Shown here: one piece after another, positions 7,751 through 17,642 of the stretch | Layout: each line of letters starts with the position of its first letter | Numbering within the stretch: position 1 is the first letter of the stretch | Assembly (NCBI GenBank): GCA_903829015.1 | Contig: CAIKOJ010000066.1 | Span: forward strand, 1 to 40,376 | DNA: 40,376 nt | Reading direction: 5' to 3' | Origin: an uncultured Bacteroidota bacterium | Lineage (GTDB): Bacteria > Bacteroidota > Bacteroidia > Chitinophagales > Chitinophagaceae | Notes under the pieces: model-generated | Database searches by the model: none | Seen by the model: only the letters and a program-made list of their open reading frames with translations | Told to the model about the DNA's origin: nothing | Translations under genes and position numbers: made by a program

Positions 7751-8737
7751 CTAAATTGAGTTAGCCACCCGCTGCAGCAGCAAAAGGTCTGCCAATGCTA
7801 TGGCCGTAGCAGCCTCTACCACAACCGGCACCCGGAGTGCTATGCAGAGGTCGTGCCTGCCTTTTACCGTAAACGGCGCAACGGTATTGGTGGCGTTGTT
7901 CCAGGTCTGTTGCTCCCGTGGCGTGCTGCTGGTGGGTTTTACCGCTACTCTGAAATTCAGTTCATTACCGTTGGTGATACCCCCATTGATGCCTCCGGCA
8001 TGGTTGGTTGCTGTGGTGCCGTTTTCGTCTGTAAAAGCATCATTGTGCTGGCTGCCTGTCAAGCCAGCCGCGGCAAATCCGCTCCCGAATTCAATGCCCT
8101 TTATTGCAGGTATCGAGAAAACAATATGGCTGATCACAGACTCTGCCGAGTTGAAAAACGGTTCACCCAAACCAACCGGCAGGCCATTGACTGCACAGCT
8201 TACAATACCACCTATACTATCATTATTCTCAATGGCTTTTTGTATGGCCGCTTCAATATCTGTTTGTCCGCCGGCCTCAGTTAATGTAGCATGCACTGAT
8301 ACACCCGAAAGTATTTTTTTCGCAACTACTCCGGCTGCCACCAAAGCCACCGTCAATCTGCCAGATGAATGACCGCCACCGCGGTGATCATTGAAACCGT
8401 TGAATTTCCGGGTAAGCACAAAGTCTGCATGGCCCGGGCGATGTGTGTCCTTTACTGCATCGTAGTCACCTGATCGTACATTGTTGTTTTCAAACACAAT
8501 GGTCAGCGGTGCACCTGTCGTTTTATTATTATAAACACCACTGACAAAAATCGGCAGGTCGTCTTCTTTACGTGGCGTTGTTCCGGCTGCACCGGCTTTC
8601 CTCCTGTCCATATCCGGCAAGAAATCCTCAACTGGCATATCTATCCCCGCAGGGCAACCATCAATGGTTACCCCTACCCATTTACCATGAGATTCCCCAA
8701 AAATACTAACCCTGAATATTTGCCCGAATGTGTTCAT
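7751..8737 (-). CDS. aroC: Chorismate synthase (short form)
   Basis: Catalyses the last shikimate step, EPSP to chorismate, using reduced FMN. Family landmarks are MNTFGQIFRVSIFGESHG at the N-terminus, DGCPAGI, DRRKAGAAGTTPRKEDD, DTHRPGHADF, the RGGGHSSGR loop, GLPVGLGEPFF, KGIEFGSGF, the NHAGGINGGITNG block, and the C-terminal VKGRHDLCIALRVPVVVEAATAIALAD. At 328 residues it is shorter than the usual ~350-390. The missing part is the segment between AKKIL and the DSIGGIV block, where most family members have an extra stretch including an NPFFCPD-like motif. The SSGR sequence also departs from the usual SARET. All core motifs are present, so it is probably active. It is the last of three clustered shikimate genes. 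Confidence 0.95.
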   Translation of the reverse strand: MNTFGQIFRVSIFGESHGKWVGVTIDGCPAGIDMPVEDFLPDMDRRKAGAAGTTPRKEDDLPIFVSGVYNNKTTGAPLTIVFENNNVRSGDYDAVKDTHRPGHADFVLTRKFNGFNDHRGGGHSSGRLTVALVAAGVVAKKILSGVSVHATLTEAGGQTDIEAAIQKAIENNDSIGGIVSCAVNGLPVGLGEPFFNSAESVISHIVFSIPAIKGIEFGSGFAAAGLTGSQHNDAFTDENGTTATNHAGGINGGITNGNELNFRVAVKPTSSTPREQQTWNNATNTVAPFTVKGRHDLCIALRVPVVVEAATAIALADLLLLQRVANSI

Positions 8738-8799
8738 TGATAATTGTTTCCTGGGTATTTAAAAATACTAAATGGTTTCAATAGTTTGAGATTTGTTCG

Positions 8800-10086
8800 C
8801 TAAGAATCCGCCGGCAGTGTTACTCTTCCGCCACATAATGCCAGATCTTTGAAAAAATCAGGGTACGATTTATTGATGCATGTAGGGTTGGTGATATCAA
8901 CCGGTCCGTTGGCACGTAAAGCTCCTATCGCCGCTGCCATGGCTATACGGTGGTCATTGTAAGAGTCTATTACGGTTCCCTGCAGCTTATATACGCCCTC
9001 TACATAAAGGGTATCTTCTTCTACCGAGAAGTGTACTCCGAAATACTGCAGCATTTCTGTTATACTTTCAACCCTGTTGCTTTCCTTGTAAAACAGTCTG
9101 TGTACCCCGCATATACTGCTCTCGCCCTCGCAGCAGGCTGCGAGTATTGCTAAAACTGGGAACAGGTCAGGGCAATCGGTGGCATCAAATTCAAAGGCAG
9201 TTAGTTTTGCATTGGTTACTGTGATGCCTTCACTATTTGTTACAACATTGGCACCTGCTGCATCCAGCACTTTCAGTATCGCCTTGTCTGCCTGCTTCGA
9301 TTCTGGGTTTAAGTTCTTAACCGTTACCGATCCGGCTATGGCTCCGGCAACAAGAAAATACGCGCCACTGCTCCAGTCTCCTTCGATATGGATTGCTAAT
9401 TCGTTTTTTTGTACAAACAAAGCCGGATCAACAATAAACTCACTGTAGTTGTTATTGATCACTTTTTTATCAGATTGTTCCAGCACCTCCAGTGTCATGT
9501 CTATGTACGGCTTGCTTTTCAGGCCGGCAACGGATATGGTTACTTTTTTGGTTGCGCAGTTACAAAGGGCGAACAACAAACCAGTCAGTAGCTGCGATCC
9601 GCCTTCTGCGTTCATTTTTATGTTAGCTGCCACCATTGGTCCCTTTATGGACACCGGCAGATATTTTTCGAATCCGGGCAGTTGCACACTTAGCTGAGGA
9701 AATACATTTGCGAAGCCTTCCATCGGGCGTTTCAGCAAGCTGCCGGAACCTGTCACTGTTGAAGGTTTTTCAGACAATGCTGCAATAGGCGTAAATAGCC
9801 GCGCCGCCAGCCCGCTTTCGCCGCAGTTGATGGTATGATGTATCGGGTTAACACCATTACTGAATAATTCTATTTTGGTGGCCGTTTGCGAAGTCACTAC
9901 TGCACCCAACTGCTGTATGATATCCAGTGCCGCTCGCTCATCATCCGACGAGCCAGGATTGTGAATCGTAGTCGAGCCCTTGTGTAGCAATGCCGCTGCA
10001 TATGCCCTTTGGGTATAGCTTTTCGATGACGGTGCGGTAAAAATTCCCGTTACAGCTCCGGGCTCAATTCTCGCTTTCATATGCAT
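8800..10086 (-). CDS. aroA: 3-phosphoshikimate 1-carboxyvinyltransferase (EPSP synthase)
   Basis: Transfers enolpyruvyl from PEP to shikimate 3-phosphate in the cytoplasm. At 428 residues it has the usual length. The N-terminal substrate loop is APSSKSYTQRA (about residues 19-29), with NCGESGLAARLFTP in the position of the usual GNAGTAMR loop, EGGSQLLTGLLFALC, the catalytic region DATDCPDLFPVLAILAA, LFYKESNRVESI, and the C-terminal DSYNDHRIAMAAAIGAL. Two close in-frame ATGs (10086 and 10080) are both plausible starts. The start overlaps the end of aroB by 23 nt, which suggests coupled translation, and aroC follows after 62 bp. The motifs deviate somewhat from enterobacterial AroA, as is common in Bacteroidota. 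Confidence 0.95.
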   Translation of the reverse strand: MHMKARIEPGAVTGIFTAPSSKSYTQRAYAAALLHKGSTTIHNPGSSDDERAALDIIQQLGAVVTSQTATKIELFSNGVNPIHHTINCGESGLAARLFTPIAALSEKPSTVTGSGSLLKRPMEGFANVFPQLSVQLPGFEKYLPVSIKGPMVAANIKMNAEGGSQLLTGLLFALCNCATKKVTISVAGLKSKPYIDMTLEVLEQSDKKVINNNYSEFIVDPALFVQKNELAIHIEGDWSSGAYFLVAGAIAGSVTVKNLNPESKQADKAILKVLDAAGANVVTNSEGITVTNAKLTAFEFDATDCPDLFPVLAILAACCEGESSICGVHRLFYKESNRVESITEMLQYFGVHFSVEEDTLYVEGVYKLQGTVIDSYNDHRIAMAAAIGALRANGPVDITNPTCINKSYPDFFKDLALCGGRVTLPADS

Positions 10087-11098
10087 TCAGTGCGTTTTCA
10101 ATAACCTCAAAAGGTAGCGAGTGAACAGTCGCTTTCCCGGGTTTGTCGAGGAGTATATAATCCATAAGTTGTTCGTTCCTTTTTTTGTCCATGCGCAGCA
10201 GCTCCATAGCCCGCTTGGGATCAAATTTGAATTTCACCGGCAGGTGGTAAAGGCTCAGCAGTCTTTTAATATCTTCGGTAATTGATTTTTCAAGACCGGT
10301 TACCGAAACAGATATCATCGACGCGATGATCATACCAATTCCAACCGCTTTGCCGTGCGGTATCTCATATAGTTGCTCTATGGCGTGCGCGGCAGTATGT
10401 CCGAAATTCAGTAGTTTTCTTACGCCTTTTTCGTGTTCATCTTCCATCACTGTTTTGTTCTTCCAGTCTACACATCTTTCAATCAGCATCGCCAGTGCAT
10501 CGCCGTCATTTTTATAAGTCGTTATGCTGTTTTTATGGAGTTCGTTGTACAGTGCCTCATCGAAAATGCAGGCGTACTTGATGATCTCTGCAAATCCATT
10601 GCTCCATTCATCGTCAGATAATGTACTCAGGAATGAGGTGTCATATAAAATAAAATCAGGCTGGTTAATGGTGCCGAGCATATTTTTATTAAAACCTAGG
10701 TTTACGCCGTTTTTACCTCCGGCTGCAGCATCCACCATCCCAAGCAGTGTAGTAGGCACAAAACCAAATGAAATGCCTCGCATATACACGGAAGCAAGAA
10801 ATCCGGTGATGTCTGTGATCACGCCTCCTCCTACGCCCACCAATATCGTTTTTCGGGTTGCCTCCAGGCTTACGAGTTCTTTGCTTAATCTTTCAATTGT
10901 GCTTATTTCCTTTGCGCCTTCCCCCGGGTTTACTAAAAGAGTTTTATGGTCTTTAAAAAGGGGTTTATAATACCTGAATATATTTTCATCGGTAATTAAA
11001 ATCACATGGTTCTTATCGAGTGTTTCCCATATTTGCTCAAAGGAACTTTGAAACATGTATTTTACCAGGCCCGAAGGAAACGTTAAGAGTTTGTCCAT
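10064..11098 (-). CDS. aroB: 3-dehydroquinate synthase
   Basis: Cyclises DAHP to 3-dehydroquinate with NAD and a divalent metal, the second shikimate step. Recognisable parts are the NAD-binding GVGGGVITDITGFLAS, YMRGISFGFVPTTLLGMVDAAAGGKNGVN, the metal ligand in GFAEIIKYA, and the two histidine motifs NFGHTAAHAIE and IPHGKAVGIGM. The ATG at 11098 gives a 344-residue protein of usual length. A TTG 18 nt upstream overlaps the promoter element and was not used. It is the first gene of an aroB-aroA-aroC cluster. The early gene aroG/F (DAHP synthase) and aroD/E/K are not in the window. Confidence 0.95.
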   Translation of the reverse strand: MDKLLTFPSGLVKYMFQSSFEQIWETLDKNHVILITDENIFRYYKPLFKDHKTLLVNPGEGAKEISTIERLSKELVSLEATRKTILVGVGGGVITDITGFLASVYMRGISFGFVPTTLLGMVDAAAGGKNGVNLGFNKNMLGTINQPDFILYDTSFLSTLSDDEWSNGFAEIIKYACIFDEALYNELHKNSITTYKNDGDALAMLIERCVDWKNKTVMEDEHEKGVRKLLNFGHTAAHAIEQLYEIPHGKAVGIGMIIASMISVSVTGLEKSITEDIKRLLSLYHLPVKFKFDPKRAMELLRMDKKRNEQLMDYILLDKPGKATVHSLPFEVIENALNAYESEN

Positions 11099-11113
11099 TC
11101 TATAATAAAAAGC

Positions 11114-11121
11114 CAAAATTA
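11114..11121 (-). promoter_or_regulatory. Bacteroidetes -7 element for the aro operon (TAATTTTG)
   Basis: On the minus strand TAATTTTG matches TAnnTTTG and lies about 15 nt before the aroB ATG. It faces away from the divergent element of the Kdo8N operon. Confidence 0.45.
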
Positions 11122-11232: not shown

Positions 11233-12438
11233 ATGCCGGGAACAGAATTATTCGGAAACGAAGAACGCAAGGAAATAAATGATGTGCTTGAAACGGGAAT
11301 GTTATTCCGTTATAACAATGAGCAGCAGCGCAATGGTATCTGGAAAGCCAGAGACTTTGAAGCTGAGGTAAGAAAAATAACCGGGGCAAAATATGCACAT
11401 GCTGTATCAAACGGTTCTGCGGCTATAGCTATAGCTCTGGCAGCGGCTGGTATAGGTGCAGGCGATGAGGTGATCTGCCCGCCATTTACGTTCATAGCCA
11501 GCGTTGAGGCTGTGCTTTGGGTGGGTGCAATTCCGGTTTTTGCTGAGATCGATGAAACATTGTGCCTGAGTGCAGAAGGTATCGAAAAGGCGATCACTCC
11601 TAAAACCAAGGGTGTTTGTCTGGTGCATATGTGTGGTGGCATGGCTGAGATGGACAGCATTATGAAAGTAGTGAACGATTACAATCTGATATTGGTTGAA
11701 GATGCCGGTCAGGCGTTTTCGGCTTCCTATAAAGGTACATCAGTTGGGCTTTTCGGTACTACGGGCAGCTATTCATTCGACTTTTTTAAGATTGCAACAG
11801 CAGGCGAGGGTGGTATTTTCGTAACCAATGATGAAGAGATTTACAAACTGGCTGATGCGTATTCTGATCATGGGCATAACCATGTGGGTAGTAACCGTGG
11901 CATGGAGCAGCACCCAGTACTAGGGTTTAACTACAGGATCAGCGAACTGCACGCTGCGGTGGCACTGGCGCAAACACGCAAAGTGCCTCAGATCAGGGAA
12001 GCCAACAGGAAAAACAAGCAACTACTGCAAGATATTCTTTCTCAAACTGAAGGTATTTCATTCGCTCATGTTGCCGACCCGGATGGCGATTCAGCAACAT
12101 TCCTGAATATGATGCTACCAGATACAGAAACGGCAAAACGCACAGTTGATGAAATGAACAAAGCAGGTGTAGGTGGTTTTAACTACTGGTATACAAACAT
12201 GTACCATTTTATAAATCAGTGGGATCATCTGAAAAATATGCAGACAGTGTCCAAGCTGCCTGCGGAAGCTTTTGGTATTCCACAGGATTATAATAATCTT
12301 CATTTACCAAAAACGCAGGAGGTAATAGGTCGTCTGGTGTCGTTCGTTATCCGCTGCACATGGACGGAGGACGAAATGAAAGCTCTTGCAGAAAAAATAG
12401 CTGCCTGCGCAAAAACAGCTATGATGGTGCCGGCCTAA
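11233..12438 (+). CDS. kdnA: 8-amino-Kdo aminotransferase, KdnA-like (DegT/DnrJ/EryC1/StrS family)
   Basis: A 401-residue PLP-dependent sugar aminotransferase. The PLP lysine is K186 in SFDFFKIATAGEGG, and the cofactor aspartate is D157 in VEDAGQAF. CPPFTFIASVEAVLW and FNYRISELHAAVALAQ are family motifs. In Shewanella, KdnA transfers an amino group to the aldehyde made by KdnB at C8 of Kdo, giving 8-amino-3,8-dideoxy-D-manno-octulosonate. I call it KdnA because it is immediately followed by a KdnB-like alcohol dehydrogenase and by kdsA and kdsB in one operon. On sequence alone many sugar aminotransferases of this family would fit. It is the first gene of the transcript; kdnB starts 38 bp after it ends. 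Confidence 0.8.
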   Translation: MPGTELFGNEERKEINDVLETGMLFRYNNEQQRNGIWKARDFEAEVRKITGAKYAHAVSNGSAAIAIALAAAGIGAGDEVICPPFTFIASVEAVLWVGAIPVFAEIDETLCLSAEGIEKAITPKTKGVCLVHMCGGMAEMDSIMKVVNDYNLILVEDAGQAFSASYKGTSVGLFGTTGSYSFDFFKIATAGEGGIFVTNDEEIYKLADAYSDHGHNHVGSNRGMEQHPVLGFNYRISELHAAVALAQTRKVPQIREANRKNKQLLQDILSQTEGISFAHVADPDGDSATFLNMMLPDTETAKRTVDEMNKAGVGGFNYWYTNMYHFINQWDHLKNMQTVSKLPAEAFGIPQDYNNLHLPKTQEVIGRLVSFVIRCTWTEDEMKALAEKIAACAKTAMMVPA

Positions 12439-12476: not shown

Positions 12477-13556
12477 ATGCATAAAAATTTTAAGAACATA
12501 GATAAGGTGGTTTTTGGAAGGGGAAGCTTTTCTGAAATGGACGGCATACTGGCTGAAAAACGCAATGACAATGGCCGGTTCTTCCTGTTTGTGGTCGACA
12601 GCTACTTTAAAGGTAAAGACCTGGAAAGCAGGCTGCCTGTAAAGCCTGAAGATGTGGTTAAGTTCATTGATGTGGATCCGAGTGAACCTACAACTGAACT
12701 GATAGACAGCCTGAGGGACGAAGTACTGGCCGCAAAAGGATTGCCTTCGGGTGTAGTAGGTATTGGTGGCGGCAGCATCATGGATATTGCAAAAGCTGTA
12801 TCTCTGATGTTTACCAACGAAGGGTCTTCTACTCTGTATCAAGGGCTGAACCTGATCAAGAAGCCGGGTATTTATCATCTGGGTGTACCTACCATCTCCG
12901 GTACCGGTGCCGAAGTTTCTATGACCGCAGTACTCACCGGGCCAGTTAAAAAGCTGGGCCTGAAGTGCGACTGGACCGTATTCAATCAGGTGATACTTGA
13001 TCCTGAGTTGATAGCTTCTGTGCCAACTGACAAATGGTTGTATACCGGCATGGATACTTATATCCACTGCATAGAATCAGAAAACGGAATTCTCAACAAC
13101 GCCTACAGCCATGCTTTTGCTGAGCAGGCCGTGAAGCTGTGCCGCGAAATATATTTGGGCGACAAAGCGGGTCAAACTGCTGAGAACGATGATAAGTTAA
13201 TGGTAGCCTCGATGATGGGAGGTCTTAGTCTTACCTATTCTGAAGTTGGTGTTTGTCATGCACTATCATATGGGTTGTCTAAGATCCTTGGCGAAAAACA
13301 TTGTTATGCCAATTGCCTTGCCTTCCAGCATCTGGAGGATTATTACGGCGAGGGTGTTCGTGAATTAAAACAAATGCTGGTACAGCACAATGTGCAATTG
13401 CCACAGGGACTATCGAAAGGCTGGACTGACGAAACGATAACCGCAATGGCCGAGGTAGCCTATAACCTGCCGCATATGTGGAATCACGCCATTGGCACTG
13501 ACTGGAAAGAAAAGGTATCATTGGATACTATTAAAGAATTGTATAAAAGAATGTAA
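12477..13556 (+). CDS. kdnB: Iron-containing alcohol dehydrogenase, KdnB-like (Kdo 8-dehydrogenase)
   Basis: A 359-residue group III metal-dependent alcohol dehydrogenase. The nucleotide-binding GIGGGSIMD is at residues 95-103. The four expected metal ligands can be read as D193 and H197 (GMDTYIHCIE), H261 (GVCHALSYG) and H275 (GEKHCYANC). In Shewanella, KdnB oxidises the C8 hydroxyl of Kdo to an aldehyde, which KdnA then aminates. The assignment rests on the family plus the operon, with kdnA before it and kdsA 3 bp after it. Fe-ADHs also act on many small alcohols, but none of those uses would fit between an LPS aminotransferase and kdsA. Confidence 0.8.
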   Translation: MHKNFKNIDKVVFGRGSFSEMDGILAEKRNDNGRFFLFVVDSYFKGKDLESRLPVKPEDVVKFIDVDPSEPTTELIDSLRDEVLAAKGLPSGVVGIGGGSIMDIAKAVSLMFTNEGSSTLYQGLNLIKKPGIYHLGVPTISGTGAEVSMTAVLTGPVKKLGLKCDWTVFNQVILDPELIASVPTDKWLYTGMDTYIHCIESENGILNNAYSHAFAEQAVKLCREIYLGDKAGQTAENDDKLMVASMMGGLSLTYSEVGVCHALSYGLSKILGEKHCYANCLAFQHLEDYYGEGVRELKQMLVQHNVQLPQGLSKGWTDETITAMAEVAYNLPHMWNHAIGTDWKEKVSLDTIKELYKRM

Positions 13557-13559
13557 ACT

Positions 13560-14393
13560 GTGAGCGTAAAAAAAGTAAAAGTCGGAAATATAAATTGCGG
13601 AGCTGATGAGTTGTTCCTGATCTCGGGTCCATGCGTTATTGAGGATGAATCAATAATGATGAAGACAGCCGAGAAGCTGAAAGAAGTAAGTGAAAAGATG
13701 AACATTCCTATCATTTACAAGTCGTCTTTCCTGAAAGATAACCGCAGCAGCCTGAAGTACTATGACGGCCCGGGTTTGGATAAAGGCCTGAAGATACTGG
13801 CTAAGGTAAAGGAGCAGTTTGGCTTTACTTTGCTTACCGATATTCACTATCCCGATCATGCAGCACCTGTGGCTGAGGTTTGTGATGTACTCCAGATCCC
13901 TGCATACTTGTGTATGCAGTCAGGGTTGATGGTAGCTGCCGCCAAAACCGGGAAAGTGGTGAACATCAAGCATGGTCAGTTTTTGGCACCTGATAATATG
14001 AAGCACCCAGTGGCTAAATGCGAAGAGGCGGGCAATAGCAACATTATTCTTACTGAGCGTGGATACACAATGGGCTATAACGACCTTGTAGTAGATCCCC
14101 GTAGCTTCTTTCATCTGGCTAATATCGGTTATCCGGTAGTGTTTGATATTACACATGCTATTCGTAAGTATGGTATACCGAGTGCGGATGCAAAAGGCGG
14201 TGCGCGTGAATTTTTGCCTGTACTGAGCAGGGCAGGTGTAGCTGCAGGTGTGGATGGGATCTTTATAGAAACACATCCCGAACCTGAAAAAGCATTGTGT
14301 GATGCAGCCAGCCAGTTGAGCGTATATGCACTTGAGGAGTTTTTGAAACCACTGATAGAGCTTCATGCTATTGAGGTTAAGTATAGAGGTTAA
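13560..14393 (+). CDS. kdsA: 3-deoxy-8-phosphooctulonate (Kdo-8-P) synthase, metal-dependent type
   Basis: Condenses arabinose 5-phosphate with PEP to make Kdo-8-phosphate in the cytoplasm. The 277-residue protein has the family landmarks FLISGPCVIEDE, IIYKSSFLKDNRSS, TDIHYPDHAAPVAEVCDVLQIPAYLCMQSGLM, VNIKHGQFLAPDNM, ILTERGYTMGYNDLVVDPRSF, FDITHAIRKYG and GIFIETHPEPEKALCDAASQL. The cysteine at residue 25 (GPC) is the mark of the metal-dependent class, as in Aquifex; the E. coli metal-free class has Asn there. It begins with GTG, 3 nt after kdnB stops, so translation is probably coupled. The gap to the next gene is 64 bp and holds a separate promoter element. Confidence 0.95.
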   Translation: MSVKKVKVGNINCGADELFLISGPCVIEDESIMMKTAEKLKEVSEKMNIPIIYKSSFLKDNRSSLKYYDGPGLDKGLKILAKVKEQFGFTLLTDIHYPDHAAPVAEVCDVLQIPAYLCMQSGLMVAAAKTGKVVNIKHGQFLAPDNMKHPVAKCEEAGNSNIILTERGYTMGYNDLVVDPRSFFHLANIGYPVVFDITHAIRKYGIPSADAKGGAREFLPVLSRAGVAAGVDGIFIETHPEPEKALCDAASQLSVYALEEFLKPLIELHAIEVKYRG

Positions 14394-14431
14394 AAATATT
14401 TAAAAACTGTTGTTTGTACGTATAGTTTTTA

Positions 14432-14439
14432 TAACTTTG
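14432..14439 (+). promoter_or_regulatory. Bacteroidetes -7 element before the toxin-antitoxin pair (TAACTTTG)
   Basis: TAACTTTG matches TAnnTTTG, 18 nt before the antitoxin ATG. A TTTG at 14413-14416 could serve as the -33 box, though its 15-nt spacing is short of the usual ~20. It gives the module its own promoter inside the Kdo8N operon. Confidence 0.5.
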
Positions 14440-14457
14440 TCGTATAATTTAGAAGAG

Positions 14458-14715
14458 ATGGACGCAAAGATCACATTGAGCTTTAATGCCACTATTATAG
14501 ACAAGGCTAAGCACTATGCCGAAAGCCAGGGAATAAGCTTAAGCAGGCTTACGGAAATATTGTTACGTAAGGCTACCGCAGGTGGCTACCGCAATATAGA
14601 AGATATTCCGGTTGCAGATTGGGTGAGTACCGTTTCTGAAGGTGAGGCAGAGTACATAACCACACCTCGCAAAAGGAAAGATCTAAAAGACGAATACTTT
14701 AAAAGTAAAAAATGA
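14458..14715 (+). CDS. Ribbon-helix-helix type antitoxin (DUF6364-like)
   Basis: An 85-residue protein. Residues 3-45 fit a ribbon-helix-helix DNA-binding fold: the short strand AKITLSF, helix TIIDKAKHYAESQ, turn GIS and helix LSRLTEILLRKATA. The C-terminal tail is charged (RKRKDLKDEYFKSKK) and would be the toxin-binding part. AGAAGAG just before the ATG at 14458 is one of the few Shine-Dalgarno-like sites in the window. Its last four bases (ATGA) overlap the start of the PIN gene, as in type II toxin-antitoxin pairs. It would bind its own promoter region at 14432 and neutralise the PIN toxin. Confidence 0.8.
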   Translation: MDAKITLSFNATIIDKAKHYAESQGISLSRLTEILLRKATAGGYRNIEDIPVADWVSTVSEGEAEYITTPRKRKDLKDEYFKSKK

Positions 14716-15128
14716 GGTTTTTTCTAGACGCTAATATTCTGGTTTCGGTTCTGAATAAAGAATATCCGGTCTATATGTACACCTCAAGAATTTTGAGCAT
14801 GGCAGGTCAAAAGGACACTACGCTGGTGACTACCACTATTTGTCTTGCGATTGCTTATTATTTTGCAGAGAAGAAACACGGTAGTGACGGTGCTAAAAAA
14901 AGAATCAGCCAATTGATTGAGCACATAGATATTGCAGATTGTGGGAAGAGAGAAGCAATATCAACTGTGCAGAACAAAAAGATACATGATTTTGAAGATG
15001 GATTGCAATATTATGCCGCAGTTCATTCTAATTGTCAGGTTATAGTGAGTAATGATCTTGAAGATTTTTATTTTTCAGAAGTACAGGTGCTAGATCCTGA
15101 GCGATTTTTTAAAAAATACGTTCAATAA
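14712..15128 (+). CDS. PIN-domain toxin (VapC-like ribonuclease)
   Basis: A 138-residue PIN-domain protein. The first acidic residue is D6 in FFLDANILVSVL; D93, E95 and D96 lie in HDFEDGLQYYAA; and N114-D115 in VSNDLEDF complete the usual pocket. The mid-helix glutamate of many VapCs is not evident (ICLAIAYYF there), so activity is likely but not certain. PIN toxins cut RNA and are held off by the partner antitoxin, here the RHH gene that overlaps its start by 4 nt. The pair is more AT-rich than the sugar genes around it. It sits between kdsA and the transaldolase-CBS gene with only 25 bp to the latter, so it looks like an insertion into the operon. Confidence 0.8.
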   Translation: MRFFLDANILVSVLNKEYPVYMYTSRILSMAGQKDTTLVTTTICLAIAYYFAEKKHGSDGAKKRISQLIEHIDIADCGKREAISTVQNKKIHDFEDGLQYYAAVHSNCQVIVSNDLEDFYFSEVQVLDPERFFKKYVQ

Positions 15129-15153: not shown

Positions 15154-16167
15154 ATGGAATTATATTTAGATTCAGCGAATCTCAAAGAAATCGAAGAAGG
15201 CTTTAAGTTAGGCTTTCTGAATGGTCTGACCACAACGCCCACTTTCATGCAGCGTGAAGGCATAGCGGATATTGATGCTATGATTGTAAAGCTATCAAAA
15301 ATGGTGCCGGTCCTTCAGATTGAGGCGCTTGGTAATACTGCAGAAGATGTGGTTAAAGAAGCCCATCGCCAGTTGGATCTGGGATTAGATCCACAGCGTA
15401 CCGTGTTCAAGATACCAGTATCGCTGGAAGGTGTGCGTGCATGTAACCTGCTGCGCAAAGACGGATTGCTGGTGAATGTGCACCTTGTATACACTTTGCA
15501 GCAGGCATATATGGCTATGCAGGCAGGCGCATCGTATGTGTGCCCGCTGGTAGGCCGCCTGCAGGACCAGGGACATGATGCGCTTACGCTGGTGAAACAG
15601 TGTGTAGATGCCGTGAACCATTACGGCTACAACACCAAGATCATGTTTAGCTCAGTACGTAACTCTGAGCATGTACGCAATGCGATCACCATTGGTGTGC
15701 ATACCATTACCGTGCCGCTGAAAGTATTAAAAGGACTGACCGACAATAACTTTACAACAATTGGTACTGAGCAGTTCCTGAGTGATACAAGGCTTATGAC
15801 GGTGCGTGTGCGTGAAGCAATAAACGGAACAAACCCAATCGTGAGCGGTGAATCTATTCTGAAAGACGCCATTGTGAAAATGACTGAATTCGGATTTGGC
15901 TGTATCACTATTACAAACGAAGACGGCAGCATAAAAGGCGTGTTTACAGACGGCGATCTGAGGAGATTACTTCAGAACGACGGTGAGCATATCCTCGACA
16001 AGAAGATTGGTTCGCTGGTAAGCAAAACGCCGATCAGCATTGACTCAAGTGCCTTGCTGAATGAAGCAGAAGCCATCTTCAAGAAAAATAATGTTGATAC
16101 TATCCTCGTAACTGAAAACGGCAAACCTTACGGTATGCTGGATATTCAGGATCTGAAAAGATACTAA
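15154..16167 (+). CDS. Transaldolase/FSA-like domain fused to a KdsD-type CBS pair
   Basis: A 337-residue chimera. Residues 1-220 fit the small transaldolase / fructose-6-phosphate aldolase fold: MELYLDSANL with D6, the Schiff-base lysine K86 in VFKIPVS, E57, R135 in PLVGRL and S167 in MFSSVRN. The near-universal TTNP motif reads TTTP (N28 to T), and the catalytic tyrosine/phenylalanine position (FSA Y131) is L132, so chemistry may differ from standard transaldolase. Residues 230-337 are two CBS motifs with GVFTDGDLRRLL, very like the CBS part of arabinose-5-phosphate isomerase KdsD. It sits between kdsA (with the toxin pair in between) and the kdsC-like gene, where a KdsD would be expected. 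I infer that it supplies or regulates arabinose 5-phosphate for Kdo. The FSA-type aldol addition of glycolaldehyde to glyceraldehyde 3-phosphate would give that product. Function untested. Confidence 0.8.
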   Translation: MELYLDSANLKEIEEGFKLGFLNGLTTTPTFMQREGIADIDAMIVKLSKMVPVLQIEALGNTAEDVVKEAHRQLDLGLDPQRTVFKIPVSLEGVRACNLLRKDGLLVNVHLVYTLQQAYMAMQAGASYVCPLVGRLQDQGHDALTLVKQCVDAVNHYGYNTKIMFSSVRNSEHVRNAITIGVHTITVPLKVLKGLTDNNFTTIGTEQFLSDTRLMTVRVREAINGTNPIVSGESILKDAIVKMTEFGFGCITITNEDGSIKGVFTDGDLRRLLQNDGEHILDKKIGSLVSKTPISIDSSALLNEAEAIFKKNNVDTILVTENGKPYGMLDIQDLKRY

Positions 16168-16173
16168 GCTGTA

Positions 16174-16887
16174 ATGGATATTAACGACCTTGATCTAATA
16201 AAAGGCCTTTTCTCAGGGAGTTTTTTAACGGAGCCGGTGGCTATCAAAGAAAAACTTTTTCGAGTAAAGGCTTTTGTATTTGACTGGGATGGCGTGTTTA
16301 ACGACGGCACCAAGGACGCCAGTGGTTCCAGCCCTTTTAATGAAGTGGACTCGATGGGGCTGAATATGCTCCGTTTTAACCACCACTTAAGAACAGGCGA
16401 AAACCCATTGACGGCCGTGATTACCGGAGAACACAATACGGCAGCTTTTACACTTGCCAAACGAGAGCATTTCCACAGCGTATACTACCGGATAAAAAAC
16501 AAGATGGATGCTTTCCATCATCTTTGCGAGTCTTATGCTATCAAGCCGGAGGAAGTGGCCTACTTCTATGATGACATTCTGGACTTGCCTGTAGCATCGG
16601 TATGCGGGCTCAGGGTAATGATAGGGCGGCCGGGTAGTCCGATGATGACTGAACTCGTAAAGAAGGATGCCCTTGCAGACTATATAACTGCCGCAGGTGG
16701 CGGAGGCAATGCACTGCGAGAAGCTGCAGAAATGCTGATAGCACTTAACGGCAACTACGATGAAACCATCCGGCAGAGAATAGAATATACTGCCAGATAC
16801 CAGGAGTATATAACAGCAAGGAATACTCCTAACCCTACTTTTTATACAATCACTGATTCTAAAATAACCGAACAGCCAGACAAATGA
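16174..16887 (+). CDS. kdsC: HAD phosphatase, KdsC-like (Kdo-8-P phosphatase)
   Basis: A 237-residue HAD-superfamily protein. Motif I is FDWDGVFNDG with D37 and D39, motif II is T84 in AVITGEHN, the motif III lysine is probably K110 in RIKNKMDAF, and motif IV is YDDILD (D133, D134). The C-terminal GGGGNALREAAEMLI matches the GGxGAVRE tail that closes KdsC active sites. KdsC removes the phosphate from Kdo-8-P to give free Kdo, which here would be the substrate of KdnB. It is longer than the usual 170-190 residues, with about 30 extra residues at the front and about 45 at the end. The start is 6 bp after the transaldolase-CBS stop, and the end overlaps kdsB by 4 nt. Confidence 0.85.
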   Translation: MDINDLDLIKGLFSGSFLTEPVAIKEKLFRVKAFVFDWDGVFNDGTKDASGSSPFNEVDSMGLNMLRFNHHLRTGENPLTAVITGEHNTAAFTLAKREHFHSVYYRIKNKMDAFHHLCESYAIKPEEVAYFYDDILDLPVASVCGLRVMIGRPGSPMMTELVKKDALADYITAAGGGGNALREAAEMLIALNGNYDETIRQRIEYTARYQEYITARNTPNPTFYTITDSKITEQPDK

Positions 16888-17642
16888 TAGCCGGTATTAT
16901 TCCTGCAAGGTATGCATCAACCAGATTCCCGGGGAAACCTGTTATAGACATACTGGGCAAGAGTATGATACAAAGGGTATATGAAGAAGCTACTAAAAGT
17001 AAGTTTCTTGATAAGGTTGTTGTAGCTACGGATGACGAGCGTATAATGGAGCATGTGCGGCAGTTTGGCGGTGAAGCTGTGATGACGGCAGCCAGCCACC
17101 CCAGTGGTACCGACCGGTGCTACGATGCTCTGCAGCAGATAGGGGATGCGTACAATTATGTGATCAATATTCAGGGCGATGAGCCGTTCATTGATCCGGC
17201 ACAAATAGATGAACTGGCGGCGATACTTACAGACGGTACTGTGGAGCTGGCCACACAGATGATACCGGTGAGCAATTACGAAGAACTGTTTGACAGGGGC
17301 GAAGTGAAGATAGTGCTGAACGATAAGATGGAAGCGCTGTACTTCAGCAGGATGGTGATACCTTTTATAAAAGGTGTGGAAGAACAAGACTGGCACAAGC
17401 ACCACAAGTATTACAGGCATGTGGGCATGTATGCTTACCGCAGGGACGTGCTGGCTCAGATAACTAAACTGCCGGTGTCGGCGCTGGAAAGGGCTGAATC
17501 GCTGGAGCAACTTAGGTGGCTGGAAAATGGTTTTAAGATCAGATGTGTGACCACCGGCTTTGACAGCCACTGCATAGATACACCTGAGGATATAGAAAAA
17601 GTGCTGAGAAGGATGGGTAAGACTCCTGATTCCGCGAGGTAG
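16884..17642 (+). CDS. kdsB: CMP-Kdo / CMP-Kdo8N synthetase (cytidylyltransferase)
   Basis: Activates the octulosonate with CTP to give the CMP sugar used by Kdo transferase. The 252-residue protein has IIPARYASTRFPGKPV at the N-terminus (nucleotide loop), VVVATDDERI, SHPSGTDRC, NIQGDEPFI, RHVGMYAYRRDVL, ERAESLEQLRWLENGFKI and the C-terminal HCIDTPEDIEKV, all expected for KdsB. Because kdnA and kdnB are in the same operon, the enzyme probably prefers the 8-amino sugar, as shown for the Shewanella KdsB. The sequence alone does not prove that preference. It overlaps the phosphatase gene by ATGA and is the last gene of the operon; a weak terminator follows at 17760. Confidence 0.95.
   Translation: MIAGIIPARYASTRFPGKPVIDILGKSMIQRVYEEATKSKFLDKVVVATDDERIMEHVRQFGGEAVMTAASHPSGTDRCYDALQQIGDAYNYVINIQGDEPFIDPAQIDELAAILTDGTVELATQMIPVSNYEELFDRGEVKIVLNDKMEALYFSRMVIPFIKGVEEQDWHKHHKYYRHVGMYAYRRDVLAQITKLPVSALERAESLEQLRWLENGFKIRCVTTGFDSHCIDTPEDIEKVLRRMGKTPDSAR

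Follow-up and report, generated by a model that had tools for sequence, protein, structure and literature searches.

A Kdo operon with a two-domain fusion gene

The window analysed here, a stretch of 40,376 nucleotides from a Chitinophagaceae contig (CAIKOJ010000066.1), carries an operon for Kdo in the order kdnA, kdnB, kdsA, a DUF6364/PIN gene pair, the fusion gene that is the subject of this study, a kdsC-like HAD phosphatase gene, and kdsB (Table 1). All of these genes lie on the forward strand, and the gaps between them do not exceed 38 bases. A first-pass annotation, made from the DNA alone, had labelled the cluster a Kdo8N operon, and the matches of KdnA and KdnB to the solved enzymes 5k8b and 5k8c bear this out. 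It had also claimed that the operon encodes every step from Kdo-8-phosphate synthesis to CMP activation. This holds for KdsA and KdsB, both of which pass their model cut-offs; the intervening phosphatase step is probable, as the KdsC-like protein scored below its cut-off (67 against 208 bits).

Table 1. Genes and domains of the Kdo operon in window coordinates, with the matches behind each assignment
Feature	Position	Strand	Evidence
kdnA, Kdo8N transaminase (DegT family)	11233..12438	+	PF01041 4.7e-80; solved 8-amino-3,8-dideoxy-Kdo transaminase 5k8b 9.1e-128
kdnB, Kdo 8-oxidase (Fe-ADH family)	12477..13556	+	PF00465 8.7e-22; solved Kdo 8-oxidase 5k8c 2.7e-123
kdsA, divergent KdsA2 clade, Kdo-8-P synthase family	13560..14393	+	TIGR01362 330.8 bits, cut-off 314
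DUF6364 protein, antitoxin-like by place	14410..14715	+	PF19891 1.1e-14
PIN-domain (VapC-like) protein, overlaps DUF6364 gene	14712..15128	+	PF13470 8.7e-13
Fusion, transaldolase/FSA-type barrel (residues 1-214)	15154..15795	+	PF00923 profile, AlphaFold model
Fusion, KdsD-type CBS pair (residues 215-337)	15796..16164	+	TIGR00393/PRK10892 C-terminal half; 4o9k, 3k2v
HAD phosphatase, KdsC-like (Kdo-8-P phosphatase)	16174..16887	+	PRK09484 1.2e-18, 67 bits, below cut-off 208
kdsB, CMP-Kdo synthetase	16884..17642	+	PF02348 6.5e-56; TIGR00466 215.6 bits, cut-off 155.2

The DUF6364 and PIN genes, which split kdsA from the fusion gene (14410-15128), are an insertion into the operon and probably stand outside the Kdo pathway. 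At one other locus (L018) the pair lies upstream of kdnA instead. The shikimate genes aroC, aroA, and aroB adjoin the operon divergently (7751-11116, reverse strand).

Domain architecture of the fusion

The fusion is encoded by an exact open reading frame that runs from an ATG at 15154 to a stop at 16167 and specifies 337 amino acids. Residues 3-201 matched the Pfam family TAL_FSA (PF00923; E 5.9e-35, 121.4 bits against a cut-off of 27), and the remainder of the protein past this barrel matched Pfam CBS in two stretches (E 3.3e-14). A SIS isomerase domain was not found in the protein by the Pfam scan. Among CBS-bearing NCBIfam models, those for KpsF/KdsD fitted best (TIGR00393, 9.1e-16; PRK10892, 1.1e-15). 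Both matched through their C-terminal CBS half only and below cut-off, with TIGR00393 aligned at model positions 133-266 only (58 bits against 203.7). The closest solved CBS pairs by sequence were likewise those of arabinose-5-phosphate isomerases (4o9k, 6.5e-16; 3k2v, 5.7e-10; 3fna, 3.3e-8), and 4o9k and 3k2v were also the best CBS-pair matches by fold. An AlphaFold model of the whole fusion, based on a 52-row alignment, had a mean pLDDT of 88.7 and a pTM of 0.58, with a weak stretch at residues 199-204. A fold search with this model returned transaldolases at the top (4xz9, 3s0c, and 1vpx).

These results agree with the landmarks that had been read from the translation at the outset. Asp6, Lys86, Arg135, and Ser167 are all present in the barrel, as are TTTP at residues 26-29 and Leu132 at the position of transaldolase Phe and FSA Tyr. 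The KdsD-like motif GVFTDGDLRR is present in the CBS half, and an aldolase-like barrel stands in place of the SIS domain. A chimaeric assembly or chance joining was ruled out by 80 named genome records that carry the fusion with 77-97% identity across residues 1-334 or more. Plasmid carriage was ruled out as well, since no single match in 72,556 records covered 80% of the query.

Distribution of the fusion and KdsD

Synthesis of Kdo is fed by arabinose 5-phosphate. Formation of this sugar is assigned, in the accessible part of PMC10448790, to the SIS-domain isomerases KdsD, KpsF, and GutQ. The genome that contains the window (225 contigs, 3.99 Mb, completeness 92.6%) yielded no SIS-CBS KdsD, and TIGR00393 at E 0.001 returned the CBS part of the fusion only. 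SIS matches in this genome were confined to two domains in a single 620-aa frame, which we infer to be GlmS-like, and to a bifunctional PGI/PMI-type protein. On this basis, a hidden KdsD was rejected for an assembly of this completeness. The genome also encodes a separate, plain transaldolase (listed as C130).

We called the fusion (E ≤ 1e-60) and KdsD (TIGR00393, E ≤ 1e-30) across a family sample of 294 genomes, with 30 and 248 positives, respectively. Three genomes contained both (G220, G260, and G370), 27 the fusion only, 245 KdsD only, and 19 neither. The anticorrelation is strong (Fisher 1.1e-22), with the reservation that this statistic ignores kinship and overstates independence because the genomes are related. 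By hand tally, KdsD-bearing members also occur in 8 of the 13 fusion-bearing genera, which suggests repeated swaps. A profile scan at E 1e-5 covered 51 genomes: the 30 with the fusion, the 19 with neither, and two from other families (G562 and G602). The SIS part was matched in G220, G260, and G370 only, and KdsD was not found in G562 or G602.

Beyond the family, the fusion was present in 5 of 345 genomes of a phylum sample and matched in 77 of 395 genomes of a class sample. The class matches, taken at E ≤ 1e-45, came from 32 genera with 31-81% identity outside the window genome, and 75 of the 77 span at least residues 1-333. KdsD was sought in 62 of the 73 new fusion genomes, the 11 that were less than 90% complete having been dropped. 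It was not found in 59 of the 62; G973 and G1047 gave matches, and G882 a match to the SIS part. Without five members of a divergent family (f75, see below), 55 of 57 class fusion genomes lack KdsD. Among 18 class controls without the fusion, KdsD was matched in 12 (partially in G772) and neither gene in 6; ten of these controls (G764-G773) were taken as fusion-free by their absence from the fusion match list.

Thirteen of the 19 family genomes with neither gene contain KdsA1, the more distant of the two KdsA types compared below, and KdsD was not found in them; nine of these 13 are less than 90% complete. The more complete ones are G385 (100%; L173), G223 (99%; L174), G342 (94%), and G278 (91%). 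Together with the six class controls, these genomes weigh against the proposal made below and indicate that loss of KdsD has other solutions or other causes, or that detection sometimes fails. The fusion genomes with a KdsD match (3 of 30 in the family, 3 of 62 in the class) weigh against it too.

Genomic neighbourhood

The surroundings of 80 named fusion loci were searched by tblastn with the window proteins, up to 8 kb around the fusion; several of these loci end at contig ends. Within this distance we found kdsC at 66 loci, kdsA and kdsB at 60 each, and kdnA and kdnB at 53 each, while relatives of the DUF6364 and PIN genes were found at 13 and 12. At least one of kdsA, kdsC, and kdsB was near the fusion at 75 loci, and none of the three was found within 8 kb at the other five (L045, L065, L069, L079, and L085). 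One locus (L034), in a record titled Azovibrio restrictus, has a Bacteroidota-type cassette and likely represents a mislabelled or contaminated bin.

The initial proposal that the fusion replaces KdsD is borne out by the genome counts above and by the kds neighbours. The window genome yielded no normal KdsD, and the fusion recurs in other Kdo operons. That it fills the place of KdsD in such operons is well supported. Many Bacteroidia appear to have swapped KdsD for an aldolase-type barrel fused to a KdsD-type CBS pair.

A KdsA clade linked to the fusion

The KdsA of the window belongs to a clade, here called KdsA2, that separates from KdsA1 with 100/100 support in a 27-row tree. Among 69 genomes, KdsA2 was present in all 32 with the fusion (77-100% identity to the window KdsA) and in none of the 37 others. 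Of the latter, 29 contained KdsA1 with at most 48% identity to the window KdsA, and 8 had none at 1e-40. KdsA2 is split over two frames in G168. Both types were found in G220, G370, and G397, and thus in two of the three family genomes that have the fusion and KdsD. With the fusion, both KdsA types, and no detected KdsD, G397 (L167 and L168) perhaps represents an intermediate stage of replacement.

Across 89 KdsA2 rows, some of which come from the same genomes, Asp60, Tyr116, Met119, His138, and an RKYGI loop at 202-206 are invariant. The eight KdsA1 sequences compared with them have Ala at 60, Phe at 116, Arg at 119, Lys at 138, and QQP or QKP in the loop. The four residues, together with RKY at 202-204, also hold in an alignment of the window protein with 11 divergent rows. 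Met119 replaces an Arg present in the canonical Aquifex enzyme (R106, by alignment) and in 6mdy. Of the canonical sugar-side motifs (FLxRQTDL, KANRSS, and QxP), KdsA2 keeps NRS, while Arg is changed to Met, Ala to Asp, and the loop is altered. The available portion of PMC6650799 describes a simulation of the Neisseria enzyme with an inhibitor, whose arabinose 5-phosphate-side part touches Pro110, Phe112, and Leu113. Judged by motif, Phe112 would correspond to Tyr116 of KdsA2. Given this mapping and the invariant changes, the receiving enzyme appears to have been remodelled together with the fusion.

Given the loss from KdsA2 of an Arg conserved in all eight KdsA1, and the other changes, the sugar used by this clade may not be arabinose 5-phosphate. 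The fusion and KdsA2 could then form a module in which a different phosphorylated aldose is made and condensed, to yield either a Kdo analogue or, through a changed sequence of steps, the same Kdo. Such a module would be in keeping with a separate clade, its invariant residues, and the strict linkage to the fusion seen in the examined genomes. However, both the NRS motif and the lysines on the PEP side are retained. KdsA2 also passes the Kdo-8-phosphate synthase cut-off of TIGR01362 in the window and in G562, as do the three KdsA1 scanned, and the kdsB product passes the KdsB cut-offs. Moreover, KdsA1 is absent in 26 of the 27 KdsD-less family fusion genomes, and a different aldose would leave these organisms without ordinary Kdo. 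We consider this explanation unlikely.

Active site of the barrel

The residues D6, E57, K86, N108, R135, S167, and R169 are invariant in all 81 close fusion homologues. Equally invariant are six sites at which the fusion departs from plain transaldolases: T28, H110, C130, L132, F165, and S166, where 27 of 27 plain transaldolases have N, T, S, F, A, and A. The 27 comprise the transaldolase of the window genome and 26 from an order search, picked by a pattern under which position 28 could be Asn or Thr. The donor/catalytic-water site of the fusion is rewritten by four of the changes (Asn28Thr, Thr110His, Ser130Cys, and Phe132Leu). Against the FSA equivalog model TIGR00875, the fusion scored 161.1 bits, under the cut-off of 245.95.

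According to the accessible text of PMC13259622, the FSA core consists of Asp6, Asn28, Gln59, Lys85, Thr109, Ala129, and Tyr131, and the catalytic water is held by Gln59-Thr109-Tyr131. The same text states that dihydroxyacetone, glycolaldehyde, or aliphatic donors are bound more tightly by variants at A129, L107/A129/A165, and D6. In TalB F178Y, two Arg and one Ser make up the phosphate site, as stated in the part of PMC3962226 available to us. Taken with the conservation in 81 fusions and 27 plain transaldolases, these roles indicate that the fusion keeps the Schiff-base and phosphate machinery, with its donor/water site rewritten. This lends weight to the first-pass suggestion of altered chemistry. 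Because the FSA water/donor-network residues Thr109, Asn28, and Tyr131 are all replaced, we infer even aldolase activity from Lys86.

The barrel could still be an ordinary transaldolase that transfers dihydroxyacetone, with its CBS pair tying pentose-phosphate flux to Kdo demand. Arabinose 5-phosphate would then come from octulose 8-phosphate and glyceraldehyde 3-phosphate, or from an unrecognised isomerase. Retention of the transaldolase-type Glu57 and Asn108 fits this picture, as do the nearest matches in fold and sequence, which are transaldolases. Set against it, the fusion has invariant replacements at each of the four donor/water positions where the 27 plain transaldolases agree, and a plain transaldolase is already encoded elsewhere in the genome. 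On balance, we regard ordinary transaldolase function as quite unlikely.

Divergent fusions

Twenty divergent fusions were fetched. Fourteen of them keep D6, T28, E57, K86, N108, H110, C130, L132, R135, S166, S167, and R169, with Phe or Val at 165. Twelve of these 14 Lys-bearing proteins are encoded beside kds genes, 11 beside kdsA and one (G878) beside kdsC and kdsB. The other two are G786, with no kds neighbour, and G850, whose contig measures 3.8 kb. The remaining six, which are all the f75 members that the class search turned up (L189-L194: G795, G826, G855, G882, G933, and G1000), have Arg or Ser at Lys86 and 31-41% identity. No kds genes were found in the stretches fetched around any of the six, and in two annotated loci the neighbours were an M61 peptidase and a phosphodiesterase. 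Where the Lys was lost, the Kdo context was lost too, and the Lys-less f75 proteins are probably pseudo-enzymes or have a new function.

A regulatory pseudo-enzyme, in which the barrel is a binding scaffold, the CBS pair senses CMP-Kdo, and arabinose 5-phosphate comes from an unrecognised enzyme, has a precedent of sorts in the six f75 proteins, which lost Lys86 yet keep the fusion and FTDGDLRR, but it is highly improbable for the Kdo-linked proteins, in which Lys86 never varies among the 81 close homologues and accompanies the kds genes in the divergent set.

Proposed function and mechanism

With a probability of roughly 0.55, we propose that the fusion is a Schiff-base aldolase that supplies the aldose phosphate used by KdsA2, most likely D-arabinose 5-phosphate, under end-product feedback through its CBS pair. 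The activity, substrates, product, and CBS ligand named here are predictions, with arabinose 5-phosphate as the likely product. The donor bound to Lys86 as a Schiff base would be a small molecule or an aldose instead of dihydroxyacetone, and Arg135, Ser167, and Arg169 would hold the phosphate of glyceraldehyde 3-phosphate or of a pentose. KdsA2 would condense the resulting aldose phosphate with PEP. The KdsD-type CBS pair would sense a pathway end product of the CMP-Kdo type and throttle the enzyme. Feedback by CMP-Kdo is suggested by the likeness of this CBS pair to 4o9k, which we take to be a CMP-Kdo complex.

There is enzymatic precedent for such chemistry. FsaA and FsaB are reported to form arabinose 5-phosphate from glycolaldehyde and glyceraldehyde 3-phosphate (PMC6298115, in the accessible portion). 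The same reaction of FSA is described in the available text of PMC9947464, where TalB F178Y yields both arabinose 5-phosphate and ribose 5-phosphate. Isomerisation of ribulose 5-phosphate to arabinose 5-phosphate via a Lys imine was set aside on chemical reasoning: a ketose imine would leave an amine-bound product, and aldol or C2-epimer chemistry is more probable.

Arabinose 5-phosphate and ribose 5-phosphate differ at C2 only. This, together with the formation of both sugars by TalB F178Y, points to two routes that would work without a SIS domain. In the first, glycolaldehyde and glyceraldehyde 3-phosphate would be joined to give arabinose 5-phosphate. In the second, ribose 5-phosphate would be converted to arabinose 5-phosphate, either by retro-aldol and aldol steps via bound glycolaldehyde or by epimerising C2 directly, with a proton transferred at a C1 imine and perhaps His110 as the new acid/base. 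The route from ribose 5-phosphate is attractive in that it needs no free glycolaldehyde. We know of no natural source of glycolaldehyde in the amount needed, and this counts against our proposal. The data above favour neither route.

More tentatively, the fusion may define a second entry into Kdo synthesis, in which arabinose 5-phosphate arises by C2 epimerisation of ribose 5-phosphate or by glycolaldehyde addition, is passed to a KdsA clade of its own under CBS control, and has repeatedly taken over from KdsD in Bacteroidia. If true, the proposal would account for the absence of one step from many Bacteroidia genomes and put right the annotation of transaldolase-like genes. It would identify an enzyme that naturally catalyses a reaction for which synthetic pathways currently rely on FSA. 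It would also mean that catalytic domains of two unrelated folds share a regulatory CBS pair. The fusion points to an undescribed start of the essential pathway to Kdo, a sugar of the outer membrane.

Relation to known systems

No description of a transaldolase/FSA-CBS fusion came up among the papers listed in our literature search. The fusion resembles TalC/FSA proteins (Thermotoga TM0295, 1vpx; Thermoplasma transaldolase, 3s0c; E. coli FsaA) in its barrel, Lys86, Asp6, and Arg135/Ser167/Arg169, and its Glu57 is as in transaldolases. It is 34% identical to 1vpx and to 3s0c in the fold match. Unlike these proteins, it has a CBS pair, and Asn28, Thr110, Ser/Ala130, and Phe/Tyr132 are replaced by Thr, His, Cys, and Leu. 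With KdsD, KpsF, and GutQ it shares the CBS pair, including FTDGDLRR, a place in the Kdo pathway, and alternation across genomes. It differs from them in having no SIS domain and, in its stead, an unrelated catalytic barrel.

The tie to the Kdo8N operon (KdnA/KdnB) is looser than the first-pass annotation had supposed. In the window, both kdn genes precede the fusion, and they are near it at the majority of loci, as counted above. However, 26 of the 30 family genomes with the fusion have KdnB (E 1e-80), as do 161 of 264 without it. A strict Kdo8N link was rejected because four of the 30 fusion genomes lack KdnB at this threshold. From these counts, the fusion belongs to Kdo synthesis rather than to its 8-amino modification.
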